Assembly (NCBI RefSeq): GCF_014191875.1
Contig: NZ_JACHXD010000012.1
Coordinates: 62,001 to 126,000, forward strand
DNA length: 64,000 nt
Direction of reading: 5' to 3'
Origin: Pseudoduganella violacea
GTDB lineage: Bacteria > Pseudomonadota > Gammaproteobacteria > Burkholderiales > Burkholderiaceae_D
Shown here: piece by piece, positions 1-49,360 of the stretch
Numbering within the stretch: position 1 is the stretch's first letter
Layout of the letters: each line of letters opens with the position of its first letter
The notes under the pieces: generated by a model
Database searches by the model: none
What the model saw: the letters and a program-made list of their open reading frames with translations, nothing else
Told to the model about the DNA's origin: nothing
Position numbers and translations under genes: made by a program

Positions 1-1090
1 CATTGCGAAAGCGCGAGCGGCATGGTTGGCATCAGCAAGGTGCTGATGCAGATGAAGCATAGGACGCTGGTCCCCAGCCTGCATGCGGCTGTTCTCAATC
101 CGGACATCGACTTTGGCAATTCGCCGTTCGCGGTACAGCAGAATCTTGCGGCCTGGGAGCGTCCAAAAGTGGAGATCGACGGCCGCCGCGGCGAGCAGCC
201 ACGTATCGCGGGCATCTCGTCATTCGGCGCTGGCGGCGCCAACGCCCACCTGATTATCGAGGAGTTCATCGCTGCGCCGCTTGGCCAGGCGTTGGCGGGG
301 CCTGCGCTGGTAGTGCTTTCCGCCCGCACTGAAGAAGGACTGCAGCAGCGTGTCCAGCGCCTTCTGGCGGCTATTGCGCCTGAGCGTATAGAACCGCAAA
401 TGACGCTGGCGAATATCGCTTACACCCTGCAAACGGGGCGCGAAGCGATGGAAGAGCGCCTGGCCATTCTGGCGGACTCGCTCGACGCACTGCGCCGGAA
501 GCTGGGCGTCATTGCAGCAGGCGAAAGCGAAGCCGATGGCGCGTATCGCGGCCAGGCCAAGAAGAACAAGGAAGCTTTCAGTCTGTTTGCAGGCGACGAG
601 GACATGGATGGCATTGTCGCCACATGGTTCGCCAAGGCCAAGCTGGATAAGCTGGGCGAGCTTTGGACCAGGGGCTTTGCGCTGGATTGGAATGCCTTGT
701 ATGCGGCAGACGGCGCAAGCCGGCCATCTCGCATCAGCCTTCCTTCCTACCCATTCGCCAAGGAGCGTTACTGGAAAGAGAGGGCCGTTGCGGCTCAGCC
801 AACCACCGTTGCGCCGGTGGCTGTAGCTCGGGTATCTGCGCCAGTTCTGTCCCGCGATCCAGATTTGCAAGGCTATGTAAGGGGCTTGTTGAGGGCTAGT
901 GTTTCCGCCACCCTGAAAGTGGCGGAGGAGGATATCGATGGTGATACACAGTGGAGCGAATACGGCTTCGATTCGATTACGCTGACCAGCTTCTGCAACT
1001 CACTCAACGATCAGTATCGCGTTGGCCTCGCGCCGACCATTTTCTTTGAATATCCAACGCTGGATGGATTGGCAAAATTCCTTGCCCAGG
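1..1090 (+). other. PKS module A (partial): KS C-terminus - ACP
   Basis: Only the last part of the KS is in view: the GHxES-type motif at the very start and SSFGAGGANAH near 217-250. It is followed by the trans-AT KS linker and one ACP whose phosphopantetheine Ser codon (YGFDS) is at 973-975. No ketoreductase or dehydratase is present. The KS fragment is closest by eye to the non-elongating KS of module G (same HCESASG, VGISKVLMQMKH). Confidence 0.85.
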
Positions 1091-4000
1091 AACGGCGGTC
1101 GCTGTTCGAGACGAGCGTTCCCGAGCCAGCGCCAGTGCAGCATGCGGAGCCGGAGCCCGCGCCGCAACTGCGCGTGGAAAACAAGGAAGCTGTCGCCATC
1201 ATCGGCATGAGCGGCCAGTTCCCGATGGCGCCCGATATGGATGCGTTCTGGCGCGTGCTGGAAGAGGGCAGGGATTGCATCGGCGAGATTCCGAAGGAGC
1301 GCTGGGATTGGAAGGCCATTTATGGTGATCCCCATCTGGAAGAGAACAAGTGCAATAACAAATGGGGCGGTTTCATCGAAGGTATCGCTGACTTCGACCC
1401 ACTGTTCTTCGGCATCTCGCCGAAGGAAGCGGAGCTGATGGACCCGCAGCAGCGGCTGATGATGGTGCATGTCTGGAAGGCGCTGGAGGACGCCGGGTAT
1501 GCCGGTGCGGCGCTGTCGGGTAGCGACACGGCGCTCTTTATCGGCACAATCGCCAGCGGTTACGCGGATCGCGTGCGGCGCGCAGGCATGGCGATTGAAG
1601 GCTATTCGTCGACCGGATCCGTGGCGTCGGTCGGGCCAAACCGCATGAGCTATTTCCTGGATTTCCACGGACCGAGCGAGCCGGTGGAAACCGCCTGCTC
1701 CAGCTCACTGGTGGCCTTGCGGCGCGGCGTTCAATCCATCCAGCGCGGCGAATGCGGCGTGGCGGTGGTGGGCGGCGTGAATGCAATCGTCAACCCCGAC
1801 CTGCATATCAGCTTTAATAAGGCTGGCATGCTGGCCGAGGATGGGCGCTGCAAGACCTTCTCCAGCGCGGCGAACGGCTATGTGCGCGGGGAGGGCGCCG
1901 GCATGCTCGTGCTCAAGCGCCTGGGCGACGCGGAACGGGACGGCGACCATATCTATGGCCTGGTGCGCGGTACGGCGGAAAATCACGGCGGCCGAGCCAA
2001 CTCGCTGACCGCACCGAATCCGAAAGCGCAAGCGGCTGTGGTCAGCATGGCGTATGAGGATGCCGGCATCGATCCGCGTACGGTAACTTACATCGAAGCG
2101 CACGGCACGGGAACCAGCCTTGGCGACCCGGTGGAGATCAATGGCCTGAAGGCAGCCTTCAAGCATCTATGCGATACGGCTGGCGTGCGCGTTGAATCGC
2201 ACCACTGCGGCCTTGGCTCGGCCAAAACGAACTTTGGCCACCTGGAACTGGCGGCCGGCGTTGTCGGGGTGATGAAGGTGCTGCTGCAGATGCGGCATAA
2301 GAAGCTGGTTCGAAGCCTGCATAGCGCTGAACTGAATCCGTATATCGATCTGGAATCCAGCCCCTTCTACGTGGTTCAGGAGGCGCGCGAATGGACCGCT
2401 TTGCGCGATGCTGATGGCAAGGAAATTCCGCGCCGCGCCGGGGTAAGTTCGTTCGGCTTCGGGGGTGTCAATGCGCACGTGGTGTTGGAAGAATATATCG
2501 CTCCTTCTCGCTTGGATCATGAACCGGCCGCCCCGGTGGGCATTGTGCTGTCGGCACGGAATGAGGACCGTCTATTGGAGCAGGCGCGCCAGTTGCTGGA
2601 CTTCGTAAGCTCTCCGCAAGTTCAAAAAGATGTTGCGTTGGCCGATCTGGCCTATACCTTGCAGGCCGGGCGGGAAGTGATGGAGGAACGCCTGGCCTTT
2701 GTAGCGGTATCGTTCGGCGAGTTGGTCGAGAAGCTGGCAGGTTTTGTGGGTGGGAATACGCAGGCTCATGCGATCCTGCGCGGCCACGCGAAGCGCGGCA
2801 AGGATTCTGCTTCCCATGGCGCCGGCCCGGCAGTAGGTCTTGAAGACTTGCTGGTCCAGTGGATTAATGGCAGGGATGTCAACTGGTCGTCGCTGTATGC
2901 AGGCCGCAAGCCGCGCCGGGTAAGCCTGCCGACCTATCCGTTTGCGCAGGAACGCTACTGGATCGACGTAGGCCATGGCCACCAAGCGGGTGGCTCCAGC
3001 GTGGTGCTTCATCCCTTGGTGCAGCAGAATCGCTCGAACATTTCAGGCCTGCGTTTCAGCAGCAGCTTCGATGGCGGCGAATTCTTCCTGGCTGACCATG
3101 TGGTGCGTGGCGAACGGGTTCTGCCCGGTGCAGCGCAGCTTGAAATGGCCCTTCATGCGGGCAAACTGGCAACCGAGAACGCATATGGTCTGCGGCTCAG
3201 GAATGTTGTCTGGGCGCGTCCTGCGATTGCGGGAGCTGGTGGCCTGCACTTGAATATCGCGCTCCGTCCTGCCGAAGGACAGGCTTTGGCCTTTGAAGTG
3301 CAGGGCGCCGGCCCAAGCGGCGATGGTTCTGTATTCAGCCAGGGCTTGCTGGAACCGGCCGACGCATCTATTTTGGCGGCTGTGCATGATATTGACGCCT
3401 TGCGCGCGCACTGCACGCGCCGACGGATGAGCGGCGCCGAATGCTACGCCCTGTTTGAGCGTATGGGACTGCACTATGGTCCGAGTTTCCAGGCCCTGAG
3501 CGAGTTGCTGGCCGCTGATGCGCTTGCGCTGGCCCGCATTGAGCTACCGCCCGCCGTGCAGGATTCTCTGCCGGACTTCACGCTGCATCCAGCCTTGCTC
3601 GACGCTGCCTTGCAGGCGTCCGCCGGCCTGCTCGGCGGTGCTGAGTTGATGCTGCTGTTCGCCCTTGGATCGCTGCAGATCCTGCAGCCGCCTGGCGGCG
3701 GCATGTGGGCCGTGGTGCAGCGTAGCCGAGGATGCGCCGCAGGCGACGCGGTGCAGAAATTTGACATTGATCTGTGCGGCGACGACGGCCAAGCATACAT
3801 CCAGATCCGGGAGTTCAGCCTGCGCGCGGTTACAGGCGGCGGCAAACGCGATGCTGAAGCGACTACCTTGCTGCAGCCTATCTGGCGCGCGCAGCCAGTA
3901 CTGACGGAAAGCGCCGGCACGGCCTACGCTCGCCATCTTGTCTTGCTGTTGGGCGCGACGGAACCGGATGCGGTTGCGATCCGCAATCGCTTGCCGGATG

Positions 4001-7000
4001 CGGACTGCCAGCTTTTGACTGCGGGCGCTGATGTTGCCGCTTCCTTCGAATCCGCCGCCCAGGCGCTGCTGGAACGGCTACAAGCCTTGGGCAGCGAAGC
4101 TGGAGCATCCCTGATTCAGCTGGCCGTCGTGGGAGATGGCGCGTTGCGAACCCTGAGCGGCTTGGGCGCGATGCTGCAAACCGCACAACAGGAAAATCCG
4201 CGTCTCACAGGCCAGGTAATCGAGTTCGATCACGGCCAAGACCTGCCGACCGTTTTGCTGGAGAACCGCGACAGCGCGGACAGACAAATCCGCTATCGCC
4301 ATGGGGAGCGCATGGTTCGCGGCTGGAGCGAGCTGGCGACCGGCGTCCCGGCACAATGGATGGACCACGGCGTATATCTGATTACAGGAGGCGCCGGTGG
4401 CCTGGGCCTGATTTTTGCCCGCGACATTGCCAGCGCCGCGACCGGCGTCACGCTGGTTCTGGCGGGCCGTTCGCCGATGAACGACGCCATACGCGCCAGT
4501 ATCCGTGAACTTGAGGCCTTGGGTGCGGTGGTGCAGTACCGTCAGCTGGATGCCGGCGATGCGGAGGCGGTTACCCAGCTTGTCCACGGCATTCAGGAAG
4601 AACACGAAGGACTGGACGGCATCATCCACAGTGCCGGCGTGTTGCGCGACAGCTTCCTTGTCAGGAAAACACCGCAGCAGCTGCGTGAAGTCCTGCGCGC
4701 CAAAGTTGCCGGCACCGTGAATCTCGACCAGGCCAGCCGTGATATTGCGCTGGACTGCTTCATCTGCTTCTCGTCCCTGTCTGGCGCGATAGGCAATATC
4801 GGGCAGGCGGACTACGCGGCGGCGAACGCCTTTATGGATAGCTTCGCTCATTACCGCAACGAGCTGGCGGCCCAAGGGAAGCGCCACGGGCGAACCTTGT
4901 CGATCAATTGGCCGCTGTGGGAGGAGGGTGGCATGCAGGTTGATGCCGCCACGCGCCGGCATCTGCTTGAACATCTCGGCATGACGCCTTTGGGCACGGC
5001 CGATGGCAGCGCGGCTTTGGCGGCGGCAATGGCCAGCGGCGCGCCGCAGGTGCTGCTGGTGCATGGAGAGGCCGAGCGCATGAAGTCAATTCTGCAAGGC
5101 CGTCTGCCGGAACGGACGGAAAATCAAAGAGAAAATGCCATGCCGATATCCGCGAATATGGAAGAAAAAGCAAGCCGCTACTTTGTGCGTCTACTGTCCA
5201 CCGCGCTCAAGCTGCCGGTGCAGCGCATTAATCCACAAGCGCAGATGGAATCCTATGGCATCGATTCCATCCTCGTCCTTGATCTGACCCGCGCGCTGGA
5301 AAAAGTGTTTGGCTCCTTGCCGAAGACGCTGTTCTTCGAATACCAGACTATCGACGCGCTGAGCAAATACTTCCTGCAGCATCATGCCGCCGTCCTGGTT
5401 CCGCTGCTGGGCGAAAGCCGCAGCGTGCGCGCGATGCCGAATCCAGCTCCCGTTTCAGCCCCGGCAATCATCGGCACGCGGGATAACCTGCGGACTTCGC
5501 TCGCCCATGCAGCCCGCACCGAGGGCGATGAAATTGCAATCATCGGCCTGGCTGGCCGCTATCCTCAGGCCAGCAATATCGAGGAATTTTGGGCCAATTT
5601 GAGCCAGGGCCGGGACTGCATCGGCGAGATTCCGGCCGACCGTTGGGACCATAAGCTGTATTTCGACGCCGACCGCAATGCCGCTGGCAAGACGTACAGT
5701 AAGTGGGGCGGCTTCATGGACGGTGTCGATCTGTTCGATCCGCTGTTCTTCAATATCTCGCCGCGCGAAGCCGAACGCATCGACCCGCAAGAGCGGCTCT
5801 TCCTGGAGTGCGTGCACGCCACACTGGAAGATGCAGGTTATACGCGGGGCAATGTGGCCGACGAAGGTGAGGTTGGCGTGTTCGTCGGTGTGATGTACGA
5901 GGAGTACCAGCTTTATGGAGCGCAGGAGCAGGTACGCGGCAATAATATCGGTCTGTTCAACAGCCCCGCGTCGATAGCCAACCGCATATCCTACTACTGC
6001 AACTTCAGTGGCCCAAGTATGGCGCTGGATACGATGTGCTCTTCGTCGCTGACCGCCATTCATCTGGCGGTTCAAAGCCTGCAGCGCGGCGATTGCAGCG
6101 TTGCGGTTGCTGGTGGCGTGAATGTATCGATCCATCCGAATAAATACCTGATGCTGGCTGAGGGTAAGTTCGTATCCGCCAAAGGGCGATGCGAGAGCTT
6201 CGGCGAAGGCGGCGAAGGCTATGTTCCAGGCGAGGGCGTGGGCGCGGTGCTGCTCAAGCCCAAAGCGCAGGCCATCGCCGATGGCGACCATATTTACGGC
6301 ATTATCAAGGCCACGGCGGTCAATCACGGTGGCAAAACCAACGGCTATACGGTGCCGAATCCGAACGCGCAAGCCAAGGTTATCGAGAAAGCCTTGCGTT
6401 CCGGCGGTGTGAATGCGCGCGATGTCAGCTACATCGAAGCCCACGGAACCGGCACCAGCCTGGGTGATCCTATCGAGATTGCAGGTCTTTCCAGGGCCTT
6501 CCAGCATTGGACTCCGGACACGCAGTTCTGCGCCATTGGCTCGGCCAAATCAAATATCGGCCACTGCGAAAGCGCGGCCGGCATTGCTGGCGTGAGTAAG
6601 GTTCTGTTGCAACTGAAGCATCGGCAGCTTGCGCCAAGCCTGCATTCCCGGTCGCTGAATCCGAACATCGACTTTGCAGCAACGCCGTTTGTAGTGCAGC
6701 AGGAGCTGGCTCCATGGCCTGGCGTGCAAAAGAATGGCGCCGAACTGCCGCGTATCGCCGGCATTTCCTCCTTTGGTGCCGGCGGCGCCAACGCCCATGT
6801 GGTGATCGAGGAATACATTGCGCCACCCGCAGACCGCTCCGCGGCGGGTGATCCTGCGCTGGTGCTGCTTTCGGCGCGTAATAAGCAGCAGCTGCAAGAG
6901 CAGGTGCAGTTGCTTCTGGCCGCTGTCGCCGTGCCGGCCGATATTGATCTGGCCGACCTGGCCTATACCCTGCAGGTTGGACGGGAGGCGCTGGAAGAGC

Positions 7001-17037: not shown

Positions 17038-17048
17038 AGGAGAGAACT

Positions 17049-29000: not shown

Positions 29001-32000
29001 GTCAGTGTCGAGGATGATTTCTTCGCGCTGGGCGGCCATTCGCTGCTGGCAACCCAGCTGATGTCGCGCATCAAAAAGACCTTCCAGGTCGAACTGCCTT
29101 TGCGCGAACTGTTCGACGCACCGACCGTTGCGCTGCTGTGCGCGAAACTGCCCGCCGATGAAGAGGAGGAGGTCTGCGCCGCTGAGGCAGAACCCGCCGT
29201 GGCGCAGCCTGCGCTGCCGCTGTCTTTTGCCCAGCAGCGCCTGTGGTTCCTGAACGAGTTCGAACCGGGCGGCGCATCCTACAATCTGCCTTCGGTCATG
29301 CGCATCAGCGGCATGCTCGATGCGGCGGCGCTGGAACGGGCGCTGAATGAGATCGTGCGCCGCCACGAAGCGCTGCGCACCAGCTTCCGCATGGAGGGTG
29401 GCGCGCCGGTGCAGGTAATCGCTGCGCGACTGCATGTGCCGCTGCCGCTGACGGACCTGAGCACGCTGCCAGCTTCCGAACGGCAGGCGAGGGCGCATTG
29501 GCTGACGCAGGATGAAGCCCAGACGCCTTTCAATCTGGAGACCGGCCCCGTGATGCGCAGCAGTCTGCTGCGTCTTGCACCGCAAGAGCATCTGCTGCTG
29601 CTGACCATGCACCATATCGCTTCGGATGGCTGGTCATTGGGTGTGCTGATGCGCGAAATGGGCATGCTGTACGCCGCCTTCGCGCAGGGCCAGCCTTCGC
29701 CGCTGCCCGAGCTGCCCATCCAGTATGCCGAATTCACCCGCCGCCAGCGCGAGTGGCTGAGCGGCGCGGTACTGGACCGGCAACTCGCCTACTGGACCCG
29801 CCAGCTGCATGGCATTCCCGGCATGCTGCAATTGCCGACCGACCGTCCGCGTCCGCCGATGCCAAGCCATCGCGGCGCCGAACTGCCGTTGGCCTTCCCG
29901 CCGGAGCTGAGTGCGCGGCTGCGCGCCTTCAGCCTGCAAAAGCAAAGCACGCTGTTCATGGTCCTGTGCTCCGCCTTCAGTGTGCTGCTGGCGCGCTATT
30001 CGGGCCAGAACGATATTTGCATCGGCACGCCGATCGCCAACCGCAACCGCGACGATATCGAAGGCTTGATCGGCTGCTTCGTCAATACTCTGGTGCTGCG
30101 CACGCAAGTCCAGTTGGGGCAAAGCTTCTCGGCCTTGCTGGAGCGGGTCAAGCAGAATACCCTGGATGCCTATGCCAACCAGGACATCCCGTTCGAGCAG
30201 CTGGTCGAACGCCTGCAGCCTGAGCGCAATCCCAGCTATTCCCCCATGTTCCAGGTATTGCTGGTTCTGCAGAATACGCCATCCGGTGCCTTGGAGCTGC
30301 CGGGCTTCCGCATCGAACCAGTGCCGCCGGAAAGCGGAACTGCCAAGTTCGACCTCACTTTGAGCCTGGCGGAAGGGAAAAACGGCCTGCATGGCAGCCT
30401 GGAATACGCCGCCGAGCTGTTCGACGCTACCACCATTGAACGCATGGGCCGCCATTTCATCCGGCTGCTGCAAGCCATCGTCACCGACCCGGATCGCCCG
30501 CTCGGCGATCTGCCGCTGATGCGCGAGGACGAGCTGCACCGCATGCTCCGGCAATGGAACGAGACCGATTTGTCTTCGCTGTCCACGGCCAGCGCCCAGA
30601 CCATGCATGAGCTGGTGGAGGCCCAGGTTGCGCGCGCGCCGCAGCGCGTGGCCTTGATGCATGAGGGCCACGCCGTCAGCTACGCCGAACTGAATGGACA
30701 AGCCAACCGCCTGGCCCATTACCTGCGCAGCCAGGGCGTGGGGCCGGACGAACTGGTGGGCGTTTGCATCAACCGTTCGGCCGATATGGTGGTTTGCCTG
30801 CTGGCGGTGCTGAAGGCCGGCGGCGCGTATGTGCCATTGGACCCGGCCTATCCGGCCGAGCGGGTCGCCACCATGCTGGGCGACGCCCAGCCCAAGGTGC
30901 TGCTGACGCAGGAAGCGCTGCTTGCGAACCTGCCGGTGCTGGCCGGGGTCACGGTATTCTGTATGGACTCGCAAAAGCCGCAACTGGCTGGCTATAGCGA
31001 TGAAAATCCCGTCAACCGCACCCTGGGCCAGCATCTCGCCTATGTGATCTATACCTCGGGATCGACGGGGCGGCCGAAGGGCGTGGCAATCCAGCACCGG
31101 AACGCGGCGGTCTTCATCCACTGGGCTATCGCGCAATTCGACGCCGCCTGGCTGGACAAAATGCTGGCTTCGACTTCGATCTGCTTCGATCTGTCGATCT
31201 TCGAAATCTTTGTTCCGCTCAGCATGGGCGGCTCGGTCTGGGTGGTGCGGAATATCCTGGACTTCGCCGAAAGAACGGCGGAATTGCCCGTCACCCTGGT
31301 CAATAGCGTCCCTTCGGCCATGGCGGAAGTCGCCCGCAGCACGACCTTGCCGGCATCGGTCAAGGTGGTGAACCTGGCCGGCGAAGCCCTGCCGAACGCC
31401 CTGGCGCAGGCGCTCTACCAGCAGGAAACGGTGCAGCGGGTATTCAATCTGTACGGCCCTTCGGAAGATACGACCTATTCCACCTGCGCCCTGGTGGCGC
31501 ACGGCGGCGACACGGCCATCAGCATCGGCAAGCCGATCGCCAATACCCAGACCTACATCGTCGATGCCCGCCTCAACCCGGTGCCGCTGGGCGCTGCCGG
31601 CGAGTTGTGCATCGCGGGCGATGGCCTGGCGCGCGGCTATCTGCACCAGCCTGGCCTGACGGCGGATAAATTCATCCCCAATCCCTTCGGAAAAACCCGC
31701 GGTTCCCGCATGTACCGCACCGGAGATCTGGTGCGCTACCGGGCCGATGGCATGCTTGAATACCTTGGCCGGATCGACCACCAGGTCAAGATCCGCGGCT
31801 TCCGCATCGAGCTGGGCGAGGTTGAAGCCGCGCTGCAGGCCCTGGCTGGCGAAGCCGTGGTGCTGGCGCGCGAGGACAACATCGGCGATAAGCGCCTGGT
31901 TGCCTATCTGGCGGCGGGCGAGGGCAACACGGTGCCCGATGCCGAATTGCTGCGTGCCGGCTTGCTGCGTACCCTGCCCGAATACATGGTCCCCAGCCAT

Positions 32001-33200
32001 TTCGTGACCCTGGACCGCATGCCGCTCAACCCGAACGGCAAGATCGACCGTAAAGCCTTGCCGGCCCCGGACATGACGCGCGTTTCGGCCGCCTATGTCG
32101 AACCGCGCGGCGCCATGGAAAAGGAGTTGGCCGCCATCTGGCACGACGTTCTCAAGGTTGAGAGGGTCGGCGCGACGGACGATTTCTTCGCCCTGGGCGG
32201 CCACTCGCTGCTGGCGGTGCACCTGATTTCGGCGATTCGCCGCAAGCTCGATGCGGACATCGCGGTGCGCGACCTGTTCGTCCACCCCAGCCTGCGGGCG
32301 CTGGCCGCCTTCCTCGACACGCATAAGCGCGCCGGACGCCACCCCAATCTGGTCCCGATCCGCCCGCACGGCAGCCAGGCGCCGCTCTTCCTGATCCACC
32401 CGGTCGGCGGCGAGGTGCAGTATGCCTACGATCTGGCGGGACATCTGGACGCTTCGCTGCCGATCTACGGCCTTGCCGCCAGCGGCTGGGCGCAAGGTGA
32501 AACGCCCCATGGCAGCATCGAAGCCATGGCCGGCGCTTATCTGGAAGCGATCCGCCAGGTCCAGCCATCCGGGCCGTATTCCCTGGCGGGATGGTCGCTG
32601 GGCGGCATGGTGGCTTACGAAATCGCCCAGCGCCTGAATGCGGCCGGCGAGGGCGTGCGCTTTGTCGGCATGATCGACAGCGGCAGCAGCCCCAATTTGC
32701 GCGGCACGATGACGCTGGGCGCCAATGGCGATTTCGACCCAACCTGCGCTTTGCTGCAGTGGGTGCGTGATTTGCACCCGGGCCTGGAGATCAACCAGCA
32801 TCCTGCCCTCGCGGAGCTGTTGGAATTGGGCCGCCGCAATGAGCTGGACGCCATGATCGCCTTGTGCCAGCGCGAGCAAGTCCTCGACAGCCGCCTGGAC
32901 GACGACTTCATCCGGCGCACCATCGCCATCTATCAGGCGGGCAGCCAGGCGGCACTGGCCTACGAAGCGCCAGCCCCTGTCGGCACGGTGCATCTGTTCA
33001 GCGCCGAGCGGGCGCCCGACATGGACGCCACGCTGGGCTGGCGCAAGCTGCTGGGCAAGCGCCTGCAAAACATCGCCGTCGGCGGCAGCCACGCCAGCAT
33101 CGTCAAGCCGCCGCATATCGAAAAACTGGGCAAAGCCATCAGCGCCGCCCTGAACAGCGCTGCGCCTGCCGCCAGCATGAATGAAAGCCGGGTCGCATAA
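17049..33200 (+). CDS. Hybrid trans-AT PKS / non-ribosomal peptide synthetase with terminal thioesterase
   Basis: Second assembly-line protein, 5383 residues. GTG start at 17049 with AAGGAG six bases upstream, 11 bases after the previous stop, so it is co-transcribed. Domain order: ACP (Ser 17157, completing module E); KS-DH-ACP; KS-carrier with a defective KS; then three NRPS modules C-A-PCP, and a type I thioesterase. The C domains each keep HHxxxDG. The A domains have YTSGSTG(K/R)PKG cores and pockets reading Val, Ser and Ala-like. The carriers keep GGHSLL. The thioesterase has GWSLGG (Ser 32595) and a late His (33090) for release of the finished chain by hydrolysis or cyclisation. There is no epimerisation, methyltransferase or cyclisation domain, and no acyltransferase. 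Confidence 0.95.
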   Translation: MQEQLKKLLVSWVSAQVKVNAHDIDGDTTLSEYGFDSVALTELANTIGQRLKIEITPSVFFEHPTLDGLSGYLAREYAVQLAPQFSAAVEMAAPPAPRAESHDIAPARRRGGYAKQGLAFSASAAQGGVEPVAIIGISGQFPMARDVHEFWRNLSEGKDCISEIPPQRWDASKTDIKWGGFIDGVDEFDPKFFGISPKEAELMDPQQRLGMMHVWKALEDAGYTGHSLAGSDTAIFIGTGPTGYGNLLNQAGLGGEAYTSTGSVPSVGANRLSYMFDWHGPSEPVETACSSSLVAIRRGVLAIQSGESGMAVVGGVNTIVTPEAHISFSKAGMLCKDGRCKTFSDQANGYVRAEGAGMLVLKKLSAAERDGDHIYAVVRGTAENHGGRANSLTAPNSRAQADLLKAAYRQAGIDPRTVGYIEAHGTGTALGDPVEVTALKSAFKELYTDNGGGAALAHCGLGSVKSNIGHLELAAGAAGVIKVLLQMKHGTLAKSLHCETLNPYIDLSGSPFYVVRQAAPWKALQDAAGRDLPRRAGVSSFGFGGVNAHVVLEEYIAPMPAALPSGPAMVVLSARNAERLQEQVQLLLDALQPGRIDPAMRLADLAYTLQTGREAMEERLALVADSLDDLRSRLAAYLRGDMNAIYRGQHKRGKDAIASFGEDEDLAQTIDAWLKKGKFDKVLELWVKGLAFDWNTLYRSGAKPRRVSLPGYPFARERYWVPEQTAQALPAVVLHPLLHRNTSDFSAQRFSSRFSGKEFFLADHVVNGAQILPGVAQLEMACGAAAAALRTGGGLALRRINWARPVKVAEAGLDLHIALLPQNDGSIGFEIYSEADDATLVHSQGEVLQPAAGGAQPRHDLAEIRQQCAKVQLNAAQCYAAFASMGLQYGESFRGLNLLLVGQDIALAQIHLPSAAPAAGFVLHPALLDAALQATLGLQVSADGGTVGNGLFLPFALEGLELCAPLVPVMWAFVRRSAGSAASDAVQKIDIDLCDEDGVVCLRFKQFSVRAASAPVARAVPTPRATAAQPSQAAPDMLREQSVLQFKKLIGAAIKVPVADIDATVSFDQYGIDSILVMELTSSLREVFGNDSNISTTIFFEYQSIEELVDHFLRTETAALMRWTGQGAAPAPTLAAAQDVPQIQADEPQLTAKIANPRRFLAGAISAPAQTSANTAPFDVAIIGLSGRYPQADDVNQFWENLLAERNCISEIPAERWDSAKVYDARRNQPGKSYSKWAGLLNDVASFDHLFFNITPREAQMISPQERLFLQEAHASIEDAGYTPAGLCPSKKVGVFVGVTHEYYATGSRFWSIANRASYLFNFQGPSMAVDTACSSSLTAVHLAIESLRCGSSDVALAGGVNLILAPGHMADLSELTLLSGGDKCKAFAADGDGFVDGEAVGALVLKPLQQAIADGDHIYGVIKGSAVNSGGKTNGFLVPGPNAQARLVQDALERAGVDARSVSYLEAQGTGSNLGDPIEIAGLSKAFRNWTDDKQFCAIGTAKSNVGHCESASGIVGISKVLMQMKHATLVPSLHAAELNPQIDFAASPFVLQQAKASWARPVLQIDGQQREYPRIAGVSSFGAGGSNAHVVIEEYIAPVRDAAPAGPALVVLSARDEDGLQRQARRLLNAIALERGDAVPALGDLAFTLQLGREAMEERLALIADSIDDLRTKLQAFADGQSAPDGVYRGQAKRSALAALADDEDMSHTVQAWITKGKHGKLLDLWVKGFSFDWNCLYNADGARKPRRISLPTYPFARHRFWTDVRYPDQPELAATLRASRVPAQANDSAAAAPINAGTQGEQAMLAVWRAFFGRPALQAEDNFFDLGGHSLLATQLVTQIGLDLGLELPVNAVFEAPTAAALHAWVQARGLVKTAPFVSLPPPAALEPAEAALPALAPARSVIPRSPRTAEISLSFAQQRLWFLDQLGSHNPLYNVAGAVRMSGKLDQAALRHTLNTVVQRHEALRTTFVMVDGKPVQAIAPQLDLVLSVTDLSGLPPSEREARAQWLLQDEAQTPFNLATGPLIRSGLLRLSAEEHILLVTIHHIVSDGWSMGVLVREVGALYAAYVQGTSSPLPPLPIQYADFAEWQRQWLSGAVLDRQLGYWRKRLADCPELLNLPTDRPRPAVATHVGASMPFSIPAELAAKLRKLSRSKDGTMFMTLCAAFNVLLARYAGQNDVCIGTPIANRNHAGIEGLIGFFVNTLVLRTQVDPEQSFNALLDQVRQHTLEAYAHQDIPFEYLVETLQPKRHASYTPLFQVMLVLHNTPMGELVLPGLAMTQLESEGVSSKFDLSLVLREGEGGLHGYIEYATDLFDVATIARIGAHFTHLLQAIAANPDSVVGGLPLLGEAERQQLIHGWNDGPRDNPAHASTIAQLFEQRAERHPERIALGFGDSSMSYGELNQRANQLAHQLRALGVGPDVLVGVCAERSLEMVVALLGVLKAGGAYLPLDPAYPAERLTHMLTDAQPTVLLAQDHLGGRLPASGIDVVSLNLQKTSLARYSSQNPGQAASAEHLAYVIYTSGSTGKPKGVPVTHRNVLRLVIDASYCALNESDRVLQFAPLSFDAATFEIWGALLNGARLELFPAAFESLGQLASVLERSTITTLWLTAAMFNQMVDHHAASLAKLRHVLAGGEALSMAHVKRFVQASAGQVRLTNGYGPTENTTFSCCHDISGAALRLGSIPIGRAISGTQAYVLDKNLEPAPVGVAGELYLAGDGLARGYLNRPDLTAEKFLPCPYADKAGARMYRSGDLVRRLADGSIEFLGRIDHQVKIRGFRIELGEVEAALAELPFVREAAVLARGDDGNGKRLVAYLVPHPGQAIPDTADLRGILLRALPEYMAPRHFVILDALPLTPNGKIDRSALPAPDMAGNADGYIAPRTPNEEKMARIWAEVLQVEKVGIHDNFFDLGGHSLLATQLVLRVNAGFEAEATLHGIFAAPTVAELLAQILPEEETAVQEVPEIVAATVSRDAPTDAAPAPVGESYPVSFAQQRLWLVDQVGGSSALYNIPVAVRMSGKLDRAALQTALNDIVQRHDALRVCFDSIDGTPMQRILPQLDIALEAADLRPLPAKEREARAHGLLMDEINQPFNLQTGPLIRARLVQKADQDYLLLVTMHHIVSDGWSMGILVREMGMLYAAHAYGAPASLPPLPMRYVDFSQWQRQWLSGEVLERQLNYWKRQLADGPTLLTLPTDRPRPATQSHNGAAQLYAIPAKLLARLQTLSRQTQSTLFMTLSAAFNVLLARYANQSDICIGTPIANRNNAEIEGLIGFFVNTLVLRTQVDLKQDFNSLLKQVRDNTLDAYSHQDVPFEQLVEAVQPERHASYAPLFQVMLVLQNAPMGKLELPGLELERMPNQGMTAKFDLTLALTEEKNGLSGYFEYATDLFDAATIERMGQHLTHLLEAIVANPACPLGLLPMLADAERHMLLQGFNDTATVYPDIQGDTQTLHQLFEAQAARTPHHQAVVYEGRSLTYAELNARANQLARHLRQLGVGPDSLVGLCTERSLEMIVGLYGIHKAGGAYVPLEPSYPQDRLATIAEDAAVKAILTQRHLLENVPSVPGIPVFCLDSEAAQLDAYDSSNPENFTQPNNLAYVIYTSGSTGKPKGVGIDQRGIVNRLKWMQAEYLLTPADRIMQKTPFSFDVSVWEFFWPLIEGATLVVAKPGGHQDVMYLAWLIDAERITTMHFVPPMLEVFLNEAAGDCGGTLRQVMCSGQALPMDLQQRFFSQWQHVELHNLYGPTEASVDVTYWQCHAQSPLSCVPIGKPIANIQIHILDAEFSPVPVGVVGNLYIAGVGLARGYVNRPDLTAQTFIPNPFSTEPGARMYLSGDLARYLPDGNIEYLGRSDHQVKIRGLRIELGEIESAIAAQEAVRDTVVLARPDERGIPRLVAYLVAHEGLALPDDAALRAALLQSLPDYMVPDYFVPLDAMPLTSNGKVDRKALPAPDMSREESVYVAPRNRREEAMAAIWADILSLEKVSVEDDFFALGGHSLLATQLMSRIKKTFQVELPLRELFDAPTVALLCAKLPADEEEEVCAAEAEPAVAQPALPLSFAQQRLWFLNEFEPGGASYNLPSVMRISGMLDAAALERALNEIVRRHEALRTSFRMEGGAPVQVIAARLHVPLPLTDLSTLPASERQARAHWLTQDEAQTPFNLETGPVMRSSLLRLAPQEHLLLLTMHHIASDGWSLGVLMREMGMLYAAFAQGQPSPLPELPIQYAEFTRRQREWLSGAVLDRQLAYWTRQLHGIPGMLQLPTDRPRPPMPSHRGAELPLAFPPELSARLRAFSLQKQSTLFMVLCSAFSVLLARYSGQNDICIGTPIANRNRDDIEGLIGCFVNTLVLRTQVQLGQSFSALLERVKQNTLDAYANQDIPFEQLVERLQPERNPSYSPMFQVLLVLQNTPSGALELPGFRIEPVPPESGTAKFDLTLSLAEGKNGLHGSLEYAAELFDATTIERMGRHFIRLLQAIVTDPDRPLGDLPLMREDELHRMLRQWNETDLSSLSTASAQTMHELVEAQVARAPQRVALMHEGHAVSYAELNGQANRLAHYLRSQGVGPDELVGVCINRSADMVVCLLAVLKAGGAYVPLDPAYPAERVATMLGDAQPKVLLTQEALLANLPVLAGVTVFCMDSQKPQLAGYSDENPVNRTLGQHLAYVIYTSGSTGRPKGVAIQHRNAAVFIHWAIAQFDAAWLDKMLASTSICFDLSIFEIFVPLSMGGSVWVVRNILDFAERTAELPVTLVNSVPSAMAEVARSTTLPASVKVVNLAGEALPNALAQALYQQETVQRVFNLYGPSEDTTYSTCALVAHGGDTAISIGKPIANTQTYIVDARLNPVPLGAAGELCIAGDGLARGYLHQPGLTADKFIPNPFGKTRGSRMYRTGDLVRYRADGMLEYLGRIDHQVKIRGFRIELGEVEAALQALAGEAVVLAREDNIGDKRLVAYLAAGEGNTVPDAELLRAGLLRTLPEYMVPSHFVTLDRMPLNPNGKIDRKALPAPDMTRVSAAYVEPRGAMEKELAAIWHDVLKVERVGATDDFFALGGHSLLAVHLISAIRRKLDADIAVRDLFVHPSLRALAAFLDTHKRAGRHPNLVPIRPHGSQAPLFLIHPVGGEVQYAYDLAGHLDASLPIYGLAASGWAQGETPHGSIEAMAGAYLEAIRQVQPSGPYSLAGWSLGGMVAYEIAQRLNAAGEGVRFVGMIDSGSSPNLRGTMTLGANGDFDPTCALLQWVRDLHPGLEINQHPALAELLELGRRNELDAMIALCQREQVLDSRLDDDFIRRTIAIYQAGSQAALAYEAPAPVGTVHLFSAERAPDMDATLGWRKLLGKRLQNIAVGGSHASIVKPPHIEKLGKAISAALNSAAPAASMNESRVA
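17442..20400 (+). other. PKS module F: KS-DH-ACP, no ketoreductase
   Basis: KS Cys at 17913-17915 in ETACSSSL, His at 18318-18320 (HGTGTALGDP) and 18456-18458. DH His at 19338-19340 (HVVNGAQILP) and Asp at 19833-19835. ACP Ser (YGIDS) at 20268-20270. As in module C, an apparently intact dehydratase is present without a KR. The KS is of the same sequence type as that of module B (SGQFPMA, FFGISPKEAELMDPQQR). Confidence 0.85.
20583..22680 (+). other. Module G: non-elongating ketosynthase (KS0) plus PCP-like carrier at the PKS/NRPS junction
   Basis: KS Cys is kept (DTACSSSL, 21048-21050) and the second His is kept (VGHCES, 21573-21575). The HGTGT His is replaced by Gln: the motif reads QGTGSNLGDP with CAA at 21453-21455. 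The usual VNHGGKT is VNSGGKT. Loss of this His normally abolishes decarboxylative condensation while still allowing acyl transfer. The carrier that follows (Ser 22545, DNFFDLGGHSLL) is of peptidyl-carrier rather than polyketide type. The module therefore most likely hands the polyketide to the first condensation domain. Confidence 0.85.
22791..25920 (+). other. NRPS module 1: C-A-PCP, predicted valine
   Basis: Condensation motif HHIVSDG at 23187-23207. Adenylation core YTSGSTGKPKG near 24618-24650. Aligning to the GrsA pocket by eye gives D-A-F-W-L-G-G-T-F-K, which fits a known Val code. Carrier Ser at 25800-25802 in DLGGHSLL. This C domain must accept a polyketide acyl donor. Confidence 0.8.
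26016..29150 (+). other. NRPS module 2: C-A-PCP, predicted serine
   Basis: Condensation motif HHIVSDG from 26412. Adenylation core YTSGSTGKPKG near 27855. By-eye pocket D-V-W-H-M-S-L-V-D-K is close to the Ser code DVWHLSLIDK. Carrier Ser at 29040-29042 in ALGGHSLL. Confidence 0.8.
29214..33180 (+). other. NRPS module 3: C-A-PCP-TE, predicted alanine (or glycine)
   Basis: Condensation motif HHIASDG from 29610. Adenylation core YTSGSTGRPKG near 31050. By-eye pocket D-L-F-N-N-A-L-T-Y-K matches the code I recall for Ala in cyanobacterial synthetases; glycine is the alternative. Carrier Ser at 32205-32207. The thioesterase from about 32350 has the nucleophile motif GWSLGG (Ser 32595-32597) and catalytic His at 33090-33092. 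Confidence 0.75.
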
Positions 33201-33220
33201 AAATACACAAGGAGATGCAT

Positions 33221-34684
33221 ATGTCGGATACCTCTACACTGGCCATTACCCCTGAAACCGAGCAGCCGGTCCAGCTCAAATACTCGCGCACCATTGCCGA
33301 TCTGCCCGGCCCCAAGCCCAGCCCCTTCTTCGGCAACCTGCTGCAGCTGGACCGCAAGCGCATCCACGTCACCGTGGAAAACTGGATACGCCAATTCGGC
33401 CCGATCTTCCGCTTCAAGATCCTGAATCACAATGTGGTCGTGGTGTCCGACTACGCGGTGGTATCTAGCCTGCTGCGCGAAAGGCCGGCCGGCTTCCGCC
33501 GCCACCAGGCCGGCGTCACCATCATGAAGGAGCTGAAGATCGACGGTGTGTTCGGCGCGGAAGGCGAGGCCTGGCGCCGTCAGCGCAAACTGGTCATGCG
33601 CGGCATGAATGCCGAAGTGGTGCGCAATTTCTTCCCCACCATGGTGAGCATGACCGAGCGCCTGATGCTGCGCTGGAAAACGGCGCTGGAAGCGGGCAAA
33701 CCGGTCAATGTGCACCGCGACTTGAAGGCGATGTCGCTGGATGTGATCGTGGCCCTGGCCATGGGCTTCGACCTGAACGCCATGGACACCGACGGCAACC
33801 AGCTGCAGCGGGATATCGACGGCCTGTTCATGCGCCTGGGCCAGCGCATGAACGCCATCTTTCCGCATTGGCGCCACGTGCGCCTGCCGCGCGACCGTGA
33901 TGCCGACGCATCGGCCGGCCGCATCGAATTCGCGGTGACCGACTTTATCCAGAAAACGCGCGAACGCATCAAGAACAACCCGCATCTGCGCCAAAAACCG
34001 GGCAATATGCTGGAAGCGATGATCGTCGCCAGCGAGGAAGACGGCAATGATTTCACCGACCAGGAATTGATCGGCAACGCCATCACGGCCGTGCTGGGCG
34101 GCGAAGATACCACTGCCAACTCCATCGCATGGCTGATCAACAATCTGGTGCAGAATCCCGCCGCTGCCGCTAAATTGGCCGCCGAAGCCGACGCCGTGCT
34201 GGGCGAACACCGCTTCATCCAGGACTGGGAAATGCTGTCGGAGCTGACTTACCTTGATGCTTCGCATAACGAAAGCCAGCGCCTGAAGTCCGTGGCGCCC
34301 GTGTTTGGCCTGGTCAGCAATGAAGATTGCGTGGTGGCCGACACCTTCTTCCCGAAAAATACGGTGGTCTTCGCCTCCGCCGTTGGCGCCAGCTTCGACG
34401 AAAACCACTTCCCGCAATCCAGCCAGTTCCTGCCGGAGCGCTGGATTTTCGATGAGAAGCCGGACGAGGGCAATGACCCGAACCGCAAACTCTTCCCCTT
34501 TGGCGGCGGCACGCGTCTTTGCCCGGGGCGCTTCCTGGCGCTGACGGAAATCCGCATGGTGATCGCTATGCTGATGCGGAACTTCGAGCTGGAGCCTGAT
34601 CCCAAGGCGCTGCCGGTGAAGGAGGTGATGAACTTCTTCATGGTTCCCAGCGGCGTGCCGGTGCGCCTGAAATTGCGCGCCTGA
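33221..34684 (+). CDS. Cytochrome P450 (probable tailoring oxidase)
   Basis: Heme-thiolate monooxygenase, 487 residues. The heme-binding loop FGGGTRLCPG, the I-helix oxygen-activation motif GGEDTT and the K-helix ExxR (ESQR) are all present, so it should be active. A proline-rich LPGPKPSPFFGN stretch opens the catalytic part, as in class II-like P450s, but there is no clear membrane anchor. Two in-frame ATGs compete; the one at 33221 was chosen because AAGGAG lies six bases upstream, whereas the ATG at 33215 touches the ribosome site. It begins 20 bases after the NRPS stop and is surely in the same operon. The likely role is late hydroxylation or epoxidation of the polyketide-peptide. The redox partner is not in the window. 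Confidence 0.92.
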   Translation: MSDTSTLAITPETEQPVQLKYSRTIADLPGPKPSPFFGNLLQLDRKRIHVTVENWIRQFGPIFRFKILNHNVVVVSDYAVVSSLLRERPAGFRRHQAGVTIMKELKIDGVFGAEGEAWRRQRKLVMRGMNAEVVRNFFPTMVSMTERLMLRWKTALEAGKPVNVHRDLKAMSLDVIVALAMGFDLNAMDTDGNQLQRDIDGLFMRLGQRMNAIFPHWRHVRLPRDRDADASAGRIEFAVTDFIQKTRERIKNNPHLRQKPGNMLEAMIVASEEDGNDFTDQELIGNAITAVLGGEDTTANSIAWLINNLVQNPAAAAKLAAEADAVLGEHRFIQDWEMLSELTYLDASHNESQRLKSVAPVFGLVSNEDCVVADTFFPKNTVVFASAVGASFDENHFPQSSQFLPERWIFDEKPDEGNDPNRKLFPFGGGTRLCPGRFLALTEIRMVIAMLMRNFELEPDPKALPVKEVMNFFMVPSGVPVRLKLRA

Positions 34685-34721
34685 CGCCGGCAGATAGACT
34701 TTGAATAGATCGGAAATGAAT

Positions 34722-35990
34722 ATGACAAGCAATCCGGCTAAGCGCGACAGCAATGCCGCCATGCCTTTTATCATGCTGACGGTGCTGATCGATATGATGT
34801 CCGTCGGCCTCACCGTGCCCGTTTTGGCGCCGCTGATGGGCAGCTTCACCACGTCGCAGGCCGACCAGGCTTTCTGGTATGGCGTGGTGGTGGTGGCTTT
34901 CGCCATCGGGAACTTCTTCGCCTCGCCGATACTGGGCGCGCTGTCCGACGCCTACGGCCGCCGTCCCGTCCTGCTGCTGGGCTTTTGTGGCCTGGCGCTG
35001 AACTTCTTCGCCACCGGTTTTGCCACGGCGCTATGGATGCTGGTCGCCGTGCGCCTGGTCGGTGGCGCCATGCAGGCCAACGGCGCGGTCGCCAATGCCT
35101 ATGTTGCCGACATCACCGCCACGCCGGAAGAGAGGGCGCGCCGTTTCGGTATGCTGGGTGCGATGTTCGGCCTCGGCTTCATTCTCGGCCCGGTCGTGGG
35201 CGGCCTGCTTGGCTCTATCCATCTGCAGCTGCCTTTCATCGTGGCCGGCAGCCTGGCCTTGATTAACCTGCTGTACGGCTGCTTCGTGCTGCCGGAATCG
35301 CTGCCGCCGGAGCGCCGTCGTCCATTCGCCTGGCGCATGGCCAATCCATTTACTTCGCTGCGCGCGCTGGCGCGGCTCGATGGCAACGGCCGCCTTGTCA
35401 CGGCGTTTGCATTGACCACCCTGGCCCAGACCATCGGCTTCATCATCTGGGTCATCTATGGCAACTTCAAATTCGGCTGGGGACCGCAGGAGAGCGGCTG
35501 GTCGCTGGCCGCCATCGGCGTGATGTCGGTGATCGTGCAGGGCGTGCTGCTGAAAAGCCTGCTCAAAGCCCTCGGTTCGCACCGGCTGGCGATGGCCGGC
35601 ATGTTCTCGGCTTCCGTCGCCAATGTGCTGTATGGCCTGGCGAACGAGGGCTGGATGTTTTATGCGATTATCGTGGCGAATGGCCTGGGCTATATCGTCA
35701 CCTCGACGATCCAGAGTATTATCTCCAGCTCGGCCGACGCGCGCAGCCAGGGCAATACCATGGGCGCGGTCAGTTCCATCGGTAGTTTGATGGCCGTGGT
35801 AGCGCCGCTGCTTGGCGCGCCGCTGTTGGCCTTGATTTCGGAAATGCCGCGCGGCGACTGGCGCATGGGCGCGCCGTTCTATTTCTGCTGTTTGCTGCAG
35901 GCCAGCGCGGCGGCGTTTGCGCTGTGGCAGTTCCGGCGTGACCGGGGACGGGGGGCCGCACCGAAGCCGGCGGCTGAAGCGGCTGGTTAA
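34722..35990 (+). CDS. MFS transporter, TetA-like (probable product exporter)
   Basis: Inner-membrane major facilitator protein of about 420 residues with roughly 12 hydrophobic segments. The cytoplasmic loop after segment 2 has the signature GALSDAYGRRPVLLLG (motif A of the drug:H+ antiporter group), and the overall look is that of the TCR/Tet family. It sits 37 bases after the P450 and before the PPTase, in a biosynthetic operon. This suggests export of the product and self-protection; substrate specificity cannot be read from sequence. Start choice is uncertain: in-frame TTG at 34701, ATG at 34716 and ATG at 34722 all precede the first membrane segment. 34722 was preferred because the only GGA-like ribosome site is seven bases upstream of it. 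Confidence 0.88.
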   Translation: MTSNPAKRDSNAAMPFIMLTVLIDMMSVGLTVPVLAPLMGSFTTSQADQAFWYGVVVVAFAIGNFFASPILGALSDAYGRRPVLLLGFCGLALNFFATGFATALWMLVAVRLVGGAMQANGAVANAYVADITATPEERARRFGMLGAMFGLGFILGPVVGGLLGSIHLQLPFIVAGSLALINLLYGCFVLPESLPPERRRPFAWRMANPFTSLRALARLDGNGRLVTAFALTTLAQTIGFIIWVIYGNFKFGWGPQESGWSLAAIGVMSVIVQGVLLKSLLKALGSHRLAMAGMFSASVANVLYGLANEGWMFYAIIVANGLGYIVTSTIQSIISSSADARSQGNTMGAVSSIGSLMAVVAPLLGAPLLALISEMPRGDWRMGAPFYFCCLLQASAAAFALWQFRRDRGRGAAPKPAAEAAG

Positions 35991-36004
35991 TATGAAGGAG
36001 AGGG

Positions 36005-36757
36005 ATGTTAGCTGTTGAAACAGAATGGAAGGCCGCCAGCGCCGGGCCGCAAACTTTGCCCGGCTTCAGCGGCCACTCGCAGCTGCGCTTGCGGCTCGCG
36101 GGCCGCGATTGCAACGCGCAACTGCTGCGCTATGATGCCGCGGCCTTTGACGCATCGGCTTTTGTCGCCGCAGGCATCGCCATGCCGGCGACGATACAAA
36201 GAAGCGTGCAAAAGCGCCAGGCCGAGTTCTTTTTCGGCCGCCTGGCCGCCGCTCTGGCGATCCAGGCACACGGCCACGCGGCTGCGGAGGTGACGATAGG
36301 GGCCATGAGGGAACCTGTATTTCCAGCCGCGCTGGCAGGAACGATTACTCATACCGGTACGGTTGCCGCCGCCGCCGTGCTGCCCGCGCACTGCTGCAAG
36401 GGCCTTGGCATCGACATCGAGCAGCCGATTGCCGCCGGCTCCATCGACAGCGTGGAACAGCTGGTGCTTGGCCCGTCTGAACGCATCTTGCTGGAGGGCG
36501 TGGCGCAACTGCCGTATCCAACGGCGCTGGCCCTGGTTTTTTCCGCCAAGGAGAGCTTTTACAAGGCCTTGGCGCTCGCAGTGGGCCGCATTTTCGACTT
36601 TTCCGCCTTGCGTCTGGAAGCCATCGACCTGTCCGCGCAGCGCCTGCGCTTCGTGACGCAAGAGGCGCTGTGCGCGGACTGGCCTATCGGCAGCCGATGC
36701 GAAATCGGTTTCAGCCTGCTGGCCGGCGGCGAGGTGTTGACGGCCTTCAGCTGGTAG
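36005..36757 (+). CDS. 4'-phosphopantetheinyl transferase, Sfp/EntD-like
   Basis: Transfers the phosphopantetheine arm of coenzyme A onto the Ser of carrier domains; 250 residues, typical for this superfamily. Seen in order: KRQAEFFFGRLAA (substrate-binding helix), GTITHTG, the Mg-binding GIDIEQ, and FSAKESFYKA (the WxxKES-type signature with catalytic Glu and Lys). ATG at 36005 is preceded by AAGGAG four bases upstream, and the gene follows the MFS gene by 14 bases. Its place at the end of the synthase operon argues that it primes the 11 carrier domains seen upstream. The stop is 11 bases short of a convergent gene, so any terminator must overlap coding sequence. Confidence 0.93.
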   Translation: MLAVETEWKAASAGPQTLPGFSGHSQLRLRLAGRDCNAQLLRYDAAAFDASAFVAAGIAMPATIQRSVQKRQAEFFFGRLAAALAIQAHGHAAAEVTIGAMREPVFPAALAGTITHTGTVAAAAVLPAHCCKGLGIDIEQPIAAGSIDSVEQLVLGPSERILLEGVAQLPYPTALALVFSAKESFYKALALAVGRIFDFSALRLEAIDLSAQRLRFVTQEALCADWPIGSRCEIGFSLLAGGEVLTAFSW

Positions 36758-38298: not shown

Positions 38299-38306
38299 AG
38301 TCCGGC

Positions 38307-46204: not shown

Positions 46205-46208
46205 GTGT

Positions 46209-47000: not shown

Positions 47001-47016
47001 TACGGCTGCATTCAAA

Positions 47017-48378: not shown

Positions 48379-48389
48379 CTGGCGGCTCC

Positions 48390-49232: not shown

Positions 49233-49240
49233 ATCGTCTC

Positions 49241-49360
49241 CTAAACGCTGATGTCCGGCCAATAGCGCAGGGCCGTCCATCCGCCGTAGGCCATCGCTAC
49301 TGCCAGCAAGACTAAGACCAGGTAAGCAAGTCCTTTAAGTGCCGCAAGCCATCCTTGCAT
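49241..49360 (-). CDS. Small single-span membrane protein between napC and norC
   Basis: 39 codons beginning MQGWLAALKGLAYLVLVLLA and ending YWPDISV. It has one hydrophobic helix with Trp/Tyr at the ends. GGAGG is placed seven bases before the ATG and the stop overlaps the norC ribosome-site region. It sits in the tight operon gap of 152 bases between napC and norC. No family is recognised. By size and place it may be a small assembly or stabilising subunit of NapC or the NO reductase, but that is inference. Confidence 0.65.
   Translation of the reverse strand: MQGWLAALKGLAYLVLVLLAVAMAYGGWTALRYWPDISV

Follow-up and report, generated by a model that had tools for sequence, protein, structure and literature searches.

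What does the assembly line at the start of this stretch of DNA make, and where does it begin and end? The stretch, called the window below, comprises 64,000 nucleotides of Pseudoduganella violacea (RefSeq assembly GCF_014191875.1, genome G000, 6.25 Mb; contig NZ_JACHXD010000012.1, here C12, positions 62001-126000), and it opens inside a trans-acyltransferase (trans-AT) polyketide synthase/nonribosomal peptide synthetase (PKS/NRPS) cluster. An earlier note on the window had described a large trans-AT PKS/NRPS line with tailoring and export genes. Our analysis confirms that the cluster is real and supports that interpretation. We consider it likely, judging from the predicted functions of its domains, that these six genes make an N-polyenoyl Val-Ser-Ala tripeptide.

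Extent and character of the cluster

The unit consists of six same-strand genes spanning 51.4 kb (C12:47385-98757; window <1-36757). In order, they encode a protein with two AT domains and an enoylreductase (AT-AT-ER; C12:47385-50705), the synthase PKS1 (9438 amino acids; C12:50721-79037), the hybrid PKS-NRPS PKS2 (5383 amino acids; C12:79049-95200), a cytochrome P450, a major facilitator superfamily (MFS) exporter and a 4'-phosphopantetheinyl transferase (PPTase), with intergenic gaps of 11-16 bp. The left edge of the window is an accident of the cut: the PKS1 reading frame runs 11.3 kb further upstream, to C12:50721, and the AT-AT-ER gene, which ends 15 bp before PKS1, lies to the left of the window. 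The right border, window position 36757, is the end of both the PPTase gene and the conserved unit.

We fetched the upstream contig, mapped its open reading frames, and derived the domain order from Pfam scans and from local profile HMMs made with domains of the cluster itself. PKS1 carries ketosynthase (KS), dehydratase (DH), ketoreductase (KR), C-methyltransferase (MT) and acyl carrier protein (ACP) domains in the order KS1-DH-KR-ACP, KS2-DH-KR-MT-ACP, KS3(0)-ACP, KS4-DH-KR-ACP, KS5-DH-ACP, KS6-DH-KR-ACP, KS7-DH-KR. PKS2 continues with ACP, KS8-DH-ACP, KS9(0)-PCP, C-A(Val)-PCP, C-A(Ser)-PCP, C-A(Ala)-PCP-TE, where PCP, C, A and TE are peptidyl carrier protein, condensation, adenylation and thioesterase domains and (0) marks a KS0, a non-elongating KS. 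The full line thus has nine KS, seven DH, five KR and one MT. Six complete KS (KS4-KS9) and the C-terminal tail of KS3 lie in the window, with five DH, three KR, three C-A-PCP modules and the TE. The earlier note had counted at least seven KS, five DH, three KR, three NRPS modules, TE, P450, MFS and PPTase, which agrees with our count once the truncated KS3 is included. It had also pointed upstream for the rest of the line; that sequence adds two modules, one of them with the C-methyltransferase, and the AT-AT-ER gene, and contains no loading module. Chance can be excluded because the frames of 9438 and 5383 codons are unbroken and have counterparts in four further genomes. Misassembly of near-identical modules (KS6 and KS7 are 89% identical) was rejected, as the PKS1 orthologues in the single-contig genomes G050 and G047 are 9452 and 9458 amino acids long.

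The trans-AT character claimed by the earlier note stands on several features. A genome-wide profile search with Acyl_transf_1 (PF00698) gave seven matches, two in the AT-AT-ER gene adjoining PKS1 and none in PKS1 or PKS2; Pfam scans likewise found no cis-AT domain in either synthase, and a cis-AT PKS is therefore ruled out. In the tandem AT gene directly upstream, AT1 has the motif GSSLG, and AT2, with GHSLGE, belongs to the FabD family (418 bits, cut-off 260.9). The ER part is PfaD-type (TIGR02814, 672 bits, above cut-off) and contains the GGHT motif; a GGHT/I motif has been described for trans-ERs (PMC10921412). KS3 and KS9 read EAQGTGS, in all five genomes that carry the cluster, compared with EAHGTGT in the other seven KS, and are expected to be KS0 domains. 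Module 7 is split between proteins, with KR7 ending PKS1 and ACP7 opening PKS2. Such KS0 domains and split modules are widespread, though not universal, in trans-AT lines. We propose that AT2 would load malonyl onto the PKS ACPs and that AT1 may act as a proofreading or starter-handling AT.

The KSs were also placed in a 48-KS tree together with those of cluster B, a second trans-AT cluster on the same contig, and of two reference clusters from one Bacillus velezensis record, which we take to be bacillaene-like (bae) and macrolactin-like (mln); the record's own annotation is generic. KS1-KS9 fall among the bae, mln and cluster B KSs. The tree has a single cis-AT KS as outlier (NRPS2_KS1), too few to separate trans-AT from cis-AT grouping; it sits elsewhere, with bae_23671_KS1 and B_2_KS1.

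Conservation was examined with the KS9-PCP-C1 stretch as query over 74 genomes of the genus. This stretch is present at full length in five of them, the own genome included, and at 88-93% identity in the other four. The E-value limit admitted three more genomes, namely G012, with 47% identity across residues 6-1031, and G037 and G028, with partial matches. All six genes are intact and colinear in the four relatives (G053, G050, G047, G021); the named carriers are Massilia sp. BJB1822 and Pseudoduganella violaceinigra DSM 15887. Over the six genes and ten genome pairs (60 comparisons) dN/dS was 0.016-0.181, with both PKSs at 0.10-0.13. In all five genomes the seven elongating KS have the same catalytic Cys and two His, and both KS0 the same Gln. 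The purifying selection and the preservation of active sites between species point to a functional cluster.

P. violaceinigra (G053) has all six genes, 85-94% identical, amid unrelated neighbours. The five siderophore-type genes tested, from ornithine oxygenase through to FhuF, are all missing from the 9.3 kb on the left of its unit, and the 59 kb on the right contain none of the neighbours tested, just weak paralogues (25-36%) of the TonB/PepSY genes. Thus, the unit is these six genes, and its borders are fixed. The P450 is only partly useful as a specific guide to the cluster: in a search of 148 relatives it had matches in 91, at 94-100% in the five carriers and at 50% or less in all the rest, and most of the genus has P450s that are 36-50% identical to it.

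The features of the cluster in the window are as follows (window coordinates, strand, description).

1..17037, +, 3' part of PKS1, 5678 of 9438 codons; the KS1-KS2 modules and most of KS3 (11.3 kb) lie left of the window
about 4..84, +, C-terminal end of KS3, a KS0 whose motif (EAQGTGS instead of EAHGTGT) is left of the window
901..1074, +, ACP3
1192..2322, +, KS4
3010..3831, +, DH4, with HxxxGxxxxP and DxxxQ
4369..4923, +, KR4
5194..5364, +, ACP4
5533..6645, +, KS5
7363..8175, +, DH5; module 5 has no KR, and about 35 residues separate the DH5 and ACP5 matches
8281..8451, +, ACP5
8605..9720, +, KS6
10438..11250, +, DH6
11809..12363, +, KR6
12649..12816, +, ACP6
12988..14103, +, KS7
14839..15672, +, DH7
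16237..16791, +, KR7, the final PKS1 domain; the ACP of this split module starts PKS2
17049..33200, +, PKS2, hybrid PKS-NRPS, 5383 amino acids
17085..17258, +, ACP7
17442..18539, +, KS8
19251..20084, +, DH8; module 8 has no KR, and about 37 residues separate the DH8 and ACP8 matches
20196..20372, +, ACP8
20586..21656, +, KS9, a KS0 (EAQGTGS)
22506..22643, +, PCP-type carrier 3' of KS9, FFDLGGHSLLA
22797..25898, +, NRPS module 1, C-A-PCP, code DAFWLGGTFK (Val)
26019..29141, +, NRPS module 2, C-A-PCP, code DVWHMSLVDK (Ser)
29217..32306, +, NRPS module 3, C-A-PCP, code DLFNNALTYK (presumably Ala)
32382..33140, +, type I thioesterase, GWSLGG
33215..34684, +, cytochrome P450, 489 amino acids
34701..35990, +, predicted MFS exporter with kinship to TetA-type efflux families, the best of which scores 274 bits, well below the cut-off of 475
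36005..36757, +, 4'-phosphopantetheinyl transferase; EntD model at 80 bits, below the cut-off of 169

Comparison of the P450 and the TE with solved structures gave distant matches only and no clue to the substrate.

Predicted reduction pattern and peptide end

The KS clades give an indication of what each module passes on. KS2, KS5, KS6 and KS7 form a single clade (support 100/99), and KS6 is 84-89% identical to the other three. Two bacillaene-like KSs located after DH-KR modules cluster with KS4 and KS8 (100/98), and two KSs downstream of methylating modules with KS3 and KS9 (100/97); KS1 pairs with the opening KS of cluster B (100/96). Since KS6, which follows the KR-less module 5, sits in a clade of KSs that follow DH-KR modules, module 5 probably hands over an enoyl chain, with a KR borrowed for the reduction. 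We propose that modules 5 and 8 both probably borrow their ketoreduction from elsewhere in this way. Each of the seven DHs has its motifs intact.

KR2 (PKS1 residues 2620-2797) reads YAAGC, with Cys replacing the catalytic Asn, and the other four KRs read YAAAN. The KRs of methylating modules share only 25-30% identity with the line's other KRs, and the form YxAG[CS], which replaces YxxAN, was found in six of the six such KRs inspected, drawn from this line, cluster B and the bae record; in two of these the MT is in the next protein. Because all six share this form, the Cys of KR2 is better read as a type than plainly as a defect.

The carriers follow the same pairing as some of the KSs. ACP2 and ACP8 (55%) and ACP3 and ACP7 (49%) are mutual best matches, as are the KSs downstream of each. 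This paired likeness fits the exchange of ACP-KS units (PMC11260071).

The peptide end consists of three complete C-A-PCP modules, in which the C motifs HHIVSDG, HHIVSDG and HHIASDG keep HHxxxDG intact, and of the terminal TE (GWSLGG). The codes of A1-A3, picked at the GrsA positions, read DAFWLGGTFK, DVWHMSLVDK and DLFNNALTYK and are identical in five of five genomes; the third we take to be a code for Ala. The first has been printed for Val (PMC9113097) and the second for Ser/Dha (PMC12283262). Thus, the Val-Ser-Ala-like peptide suggested by the earlier note is supported by printed codes in its first two residues, with Ala as the presumed reading of the third. No epimerization (E) domain was found in the NRPS part and a simple motif scan revealed no dual C/E motif, and the predicted peptide is therefore L-Val-L-Ser-L-Ala.

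Proposed product and its alternatives

Gene content, domain order, active-site motifs, A codes, conservation and borders can be read directly from the sequence. Based on these, we propose a model for how the product would be built. No loading module is found in the six genes; PKS1 opens with KS1, whose match starts at residue 15. Because no loading module precedes it, KS1 would be primed directly by a short starter, probably acetyl. Modules 1, 2, 4, 5, 6, 7 and 8, all of which carry a DH, would each add a C2 unit, giving seven elongations. Module 2 would also C-methylate, and KS3 and KS9 would merely hand the chain on. The result would be a polyenoyl chain, methyl-branched and largely conjugated, of roughly C17 if acetyl is the starter. 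This chain would cross the KS0-PCP to the three C-A-PCP modules, which would add Val, Ser and Ala, and release by the TE would give an acid or a lactone. Tailoring may include saturation of one or more bonds by the PfaD-type ER and would include oxidation of the product by the P450, and the MFS protein would export it; cyclisation via Ser or a P450-derived hydroxyl is possible. If the starter is acetyl, every elongating module is served by a KR and the ER stays inactive, the untailored acid computes to C28H39N3O6, [M+H]+ 514.291, with variants at 530.286 (+O) and 496.281 (lactone). The domain content supports the partly unsaturated polyketide that had been suggested earlier.

Several observations weigh against this model. 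Reduction in module 2 is less sure, given that KR2 lacks the catalytic Asn. The KR supply to modules 5 and 8 is read from KS clades in a comparison of two reference clusters and cluster B. B_1_KS4, B_7_KS1 and bae_39986_KS1 also follow methylating modules but fall outside the KS3/KS9 clade, and KS9 is in this methylating-type clade although module 8 has no MT; the clade may stem from KS0 duplication rather than from substrate. The Ala code string DLFNNALTYK appeared in no paper of the open-access literature searched, and the C-domain stereotype comes from a motif scan. A trans-ER is present, and its target modules are not readable from the sequence. Finally, trans-AT modules can iterate (PMC10921412), which makes the chain length uncertain.

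In its most specific form, the model describes a directly primed line with no loading module and seven dehydrating elongations, two of them KR-borrowing, that yields a methylated heptaene and passes it through KS0-PCP to Val-Ser-Ala. We offer this form tentatively; it would be a new chemotype, a polyenoyl tripeptide made by few genomes of the family and possibly a pigment. A less likely alternative to the preferred product has the same synthase leave beta-keto groups at modules 5 and 8, or has the DHs shift double bonds, so that the polyene is interrupted (keto or skipped-diene) and perhaps ends in a pyrone-like or tetramate-like ring. Modules 5 and 8 have no space for a KR between DH and ACP, all seven DHs have intact motifs, and a title cited in PMC11260071 reports beta,gamma dehydration at the end of the bacillaene line. 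However, KS6 shares its clade and 84-89% identity with KS2, KS5 and KS7, which follow DH-KR modules, and the retention of a motif-intact DH in a KR-less module suggests that a beta-hydroxyl arrives there. We think it unlikely that the ER saturates so many positions that a mostly saturated, methyl-branched lipotripeptide with no polyene results. The GGHT-motif ER is fused into the AT gene, this fused gene is under purifying selection in five genomes, and the gladiolin trans-ERs act on selected modules (PMC10921412). Yet KS2, KS5, KS6 and KS7 form one clade with no sign that any of them takes a saturated chain (the tree covers no KS clades for saturated substrates), and no cis-ER turned up in the Pfam scans.

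Two further alternatives concern what the cluster belongs to. That it makes an already described compound, with its gene cluster in MIBiG or a subscription journal, seems quite improbable. The group is under chemical study, as massiliachelin, massinidine and violacein in Massilia sp. NR 4-1 attest (PMC6604713, PMC10291242). However, among the best matches listed from the open-access literature, outside which subscription journals mostly fall, we found neither a product nor a description of this cluster, nor any trans-AT product for Massilia, Duganella or Pseudoduganella. Likewise, a term search of the main text of PMC7930024, supplements excluded, found no mention of Massilia, Duganella or Oxalobacteraceae. 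Least probable by far is that the PKS is part of a composite locus with the siderophore NRPS (contig 10.9-34.4 kb) or cluster B (129-209 kb) and that they make one joint product. All of them lie on one 235-kb contig, and antiSMASH calls a putative metallophore cluster, ACZ75_RS05545-RS06020, in a published strain (PMC10291242), which we infer to be in the same place. However, P. violaceinigra keeps the six genes with none of the tested neighbours, save the weak TonB/PepSY paralogues, and cluster B has its own AT-AT and PPTase and is found in the fetched stretches of one of the four relatives. We rejected a joint locus with either neighbour on the synteny of P. violaceinigra. We return to the N-polyenoyl tripeptide as the preferred product of the six genes, and provisionally regard them as an orphan but conventional trans-AT PKS/NRPS cluster.

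Neighbouring loci, related lines and significance

To the left of the unit, C12:10885-46560 holds an NRPS/cis-AT-PKS with an AMP-binding starter domain, an ornithine monooxygenase, a penicillin amidase (PvdQ-like), an ABC exporter, FhuF and a TonB receptor; it looks like a lipopeptide siderophore locus. G050, G047 and G021 conserve its genes from ornithine monooxygenase through to FhuF, which were not found in the fetched stretch of G053. It perhaps corresponds to ACZ75_RS05545-RS06020 of Massilia sp. NR 4-1, an unassigned putative lipopeptide-siderophore locus (PMC10291242). Cluster B (C12:129316-209123), about 30 kb to the right of the unit, is a large trans-AT PKS/NRPS cluster that also encodes an ECH-domain protein. 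The tested genes of its left half are 91-97% identical in G047, and were not found in the fetched stretches of G053, G050 and G021.

Within the window, pairs of a TonB receptor and a PepSY-TM protein lie at 36769-40514 (-) and 60689-64000 (+); the left pair adjoins the PPTase gene yet falls outside the conserved unit. Window 44192-52962 (-) encodes a VWA protein (NorD-like), a NorQ/CbbQ AAA protein, a COX1-family protein (NorB-like) and a cytochrome c, followed by a molybdopterin oxidoreductase, and possibly represents nitric-oxide and nitrate reduction genes. The cytochrome c maturation genes for CcmF, a cytochrome c assembly protein, CcmB and an ABC ATPase lie at 55770-60616 (-).

To look beyond the genus with the KS9-PCP-C1 query, we drew even samples of 399 genomes of the order, 392 of the family and 369 of the class, and scored at most two candidates per genome. 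In the order sample, 44 of 399 genomes pass an E-value of 1e-100 and, besides the own genome, match in the KS part alone or the C part alone. The class sample gave, besides the own genome, one KS match only (57%). Among 72,556 plasmid records, all 1690 with a match stay below 60% identity. A single additional full-length relative came from the family sample: G778, which belongs to another genus and matches at 63%.

The G778 assembly (580 contigs, 73% complete) holds pieces of a line with an overall identity of 54-71% in synthase and P450: KS1-DH-KR (56%), DH-KR-MT-ACP-KS3 (60%), DH-ACP-KS-DH-KR // ACP-KS (54-63%), KS8-DH-ACP-KS9(Q)-PCP-C (57%), and C-A-PCP-TE (61%) followed by the P450 (70-71%) and an MFS fragment (82%). 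It shares the KS0 Gln, the KS0-PCP-C arrangement, the A3 code DLFNNALTY, the TE-P450-MFS order and the KR // ACP-KS protein break. The KS after that break is nearest KS4 (81%; KS8 70%), and with its flank it is 60% identical to the KS8-like piece on another contig. G778 thus appears to hold a related line with a partly different module order. The idea that it has one module fewer, through recent duplication of KS6/KS7 here, was dropped because the post-break KS resembles KS4 and is distinct from the KS8-like one on the other contig.

Other candidates fit less well. Two genomes of another genus (G728, contig C30; G658, contig C1) contain further trans-AT PKS clusters, one with a 10,051-codon frame; their KSs are 57-63% identical to KS9, and both were set aside because their module orders differ. 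In Eleftheria terrae H1 the match (43%, KS-PCP-C) has different neighbours, and the annotation gives it a terminal thioester reductase. Palmerolide starter logic is inapplicable, as the palmerolide line has loading ACPs.

The synthase of Bacillus velezensis pDMB05-1 that we take to be bacillaene-like is likewise trans-AT with KS-DH-KR repeats. Identity to its KSs is 71-72% for KS2/5/6/7, 62-63% for KS4/8 and 63-65% for KS3/9. It has an internal amino-acid module, whereas the line described here has a C-terminal tripeptide, and beta-branching genes (HMGS, ECH) are not among the six genes. Membership of the bacillaene family, for which a shared module order with more than 70% identity along the whole line was required, was rejected because only single KSs reach 71-72% and the order and accessory genes differ. 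On the same record, the presumed macrolactin-like synthase has an AT gene directly before a PKS that opens with a KS (residue 10), no loading module and split modules. Thus, the lack of a loading module in our cluster is not unique. Unlike our line, the part of it seen has no NRPS modules and an AT-like stretch after the first KS, to which KS1 is only 47% identical. The record itself (NZ_CP083716.1, 807 kb, circular) is filed as a plasmid and carries the housekeeping genes miaA, hfq, glnA and nrdEF, so that it could be part of a chromosome; the first bae PKS is apparently missing from it. By description rather than by sequence, gladiolin and etnangien offer a further likeness, a discrete GGHT/I ER acting in trans on chosen modules (PMC10921412); in P. 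violacea, by contrast, the ER forms one protein with two ATs, and an NRPS closes the line.

Knowledge of the class is unchanged by this cluster, as its type of machine is well known and 1782 trans-AT clusters have already been surveyed against 49 characterised ones (PMC7930024). Its KR-less modules and its first KS with no loading module offer small tests of how far the trans-AT collinearity rules reach. For genome-to-compound work, it provides a complete, intact and maintained orphan cluster with set borders, at least two named carriers, and a concrete mass and UV prediction.

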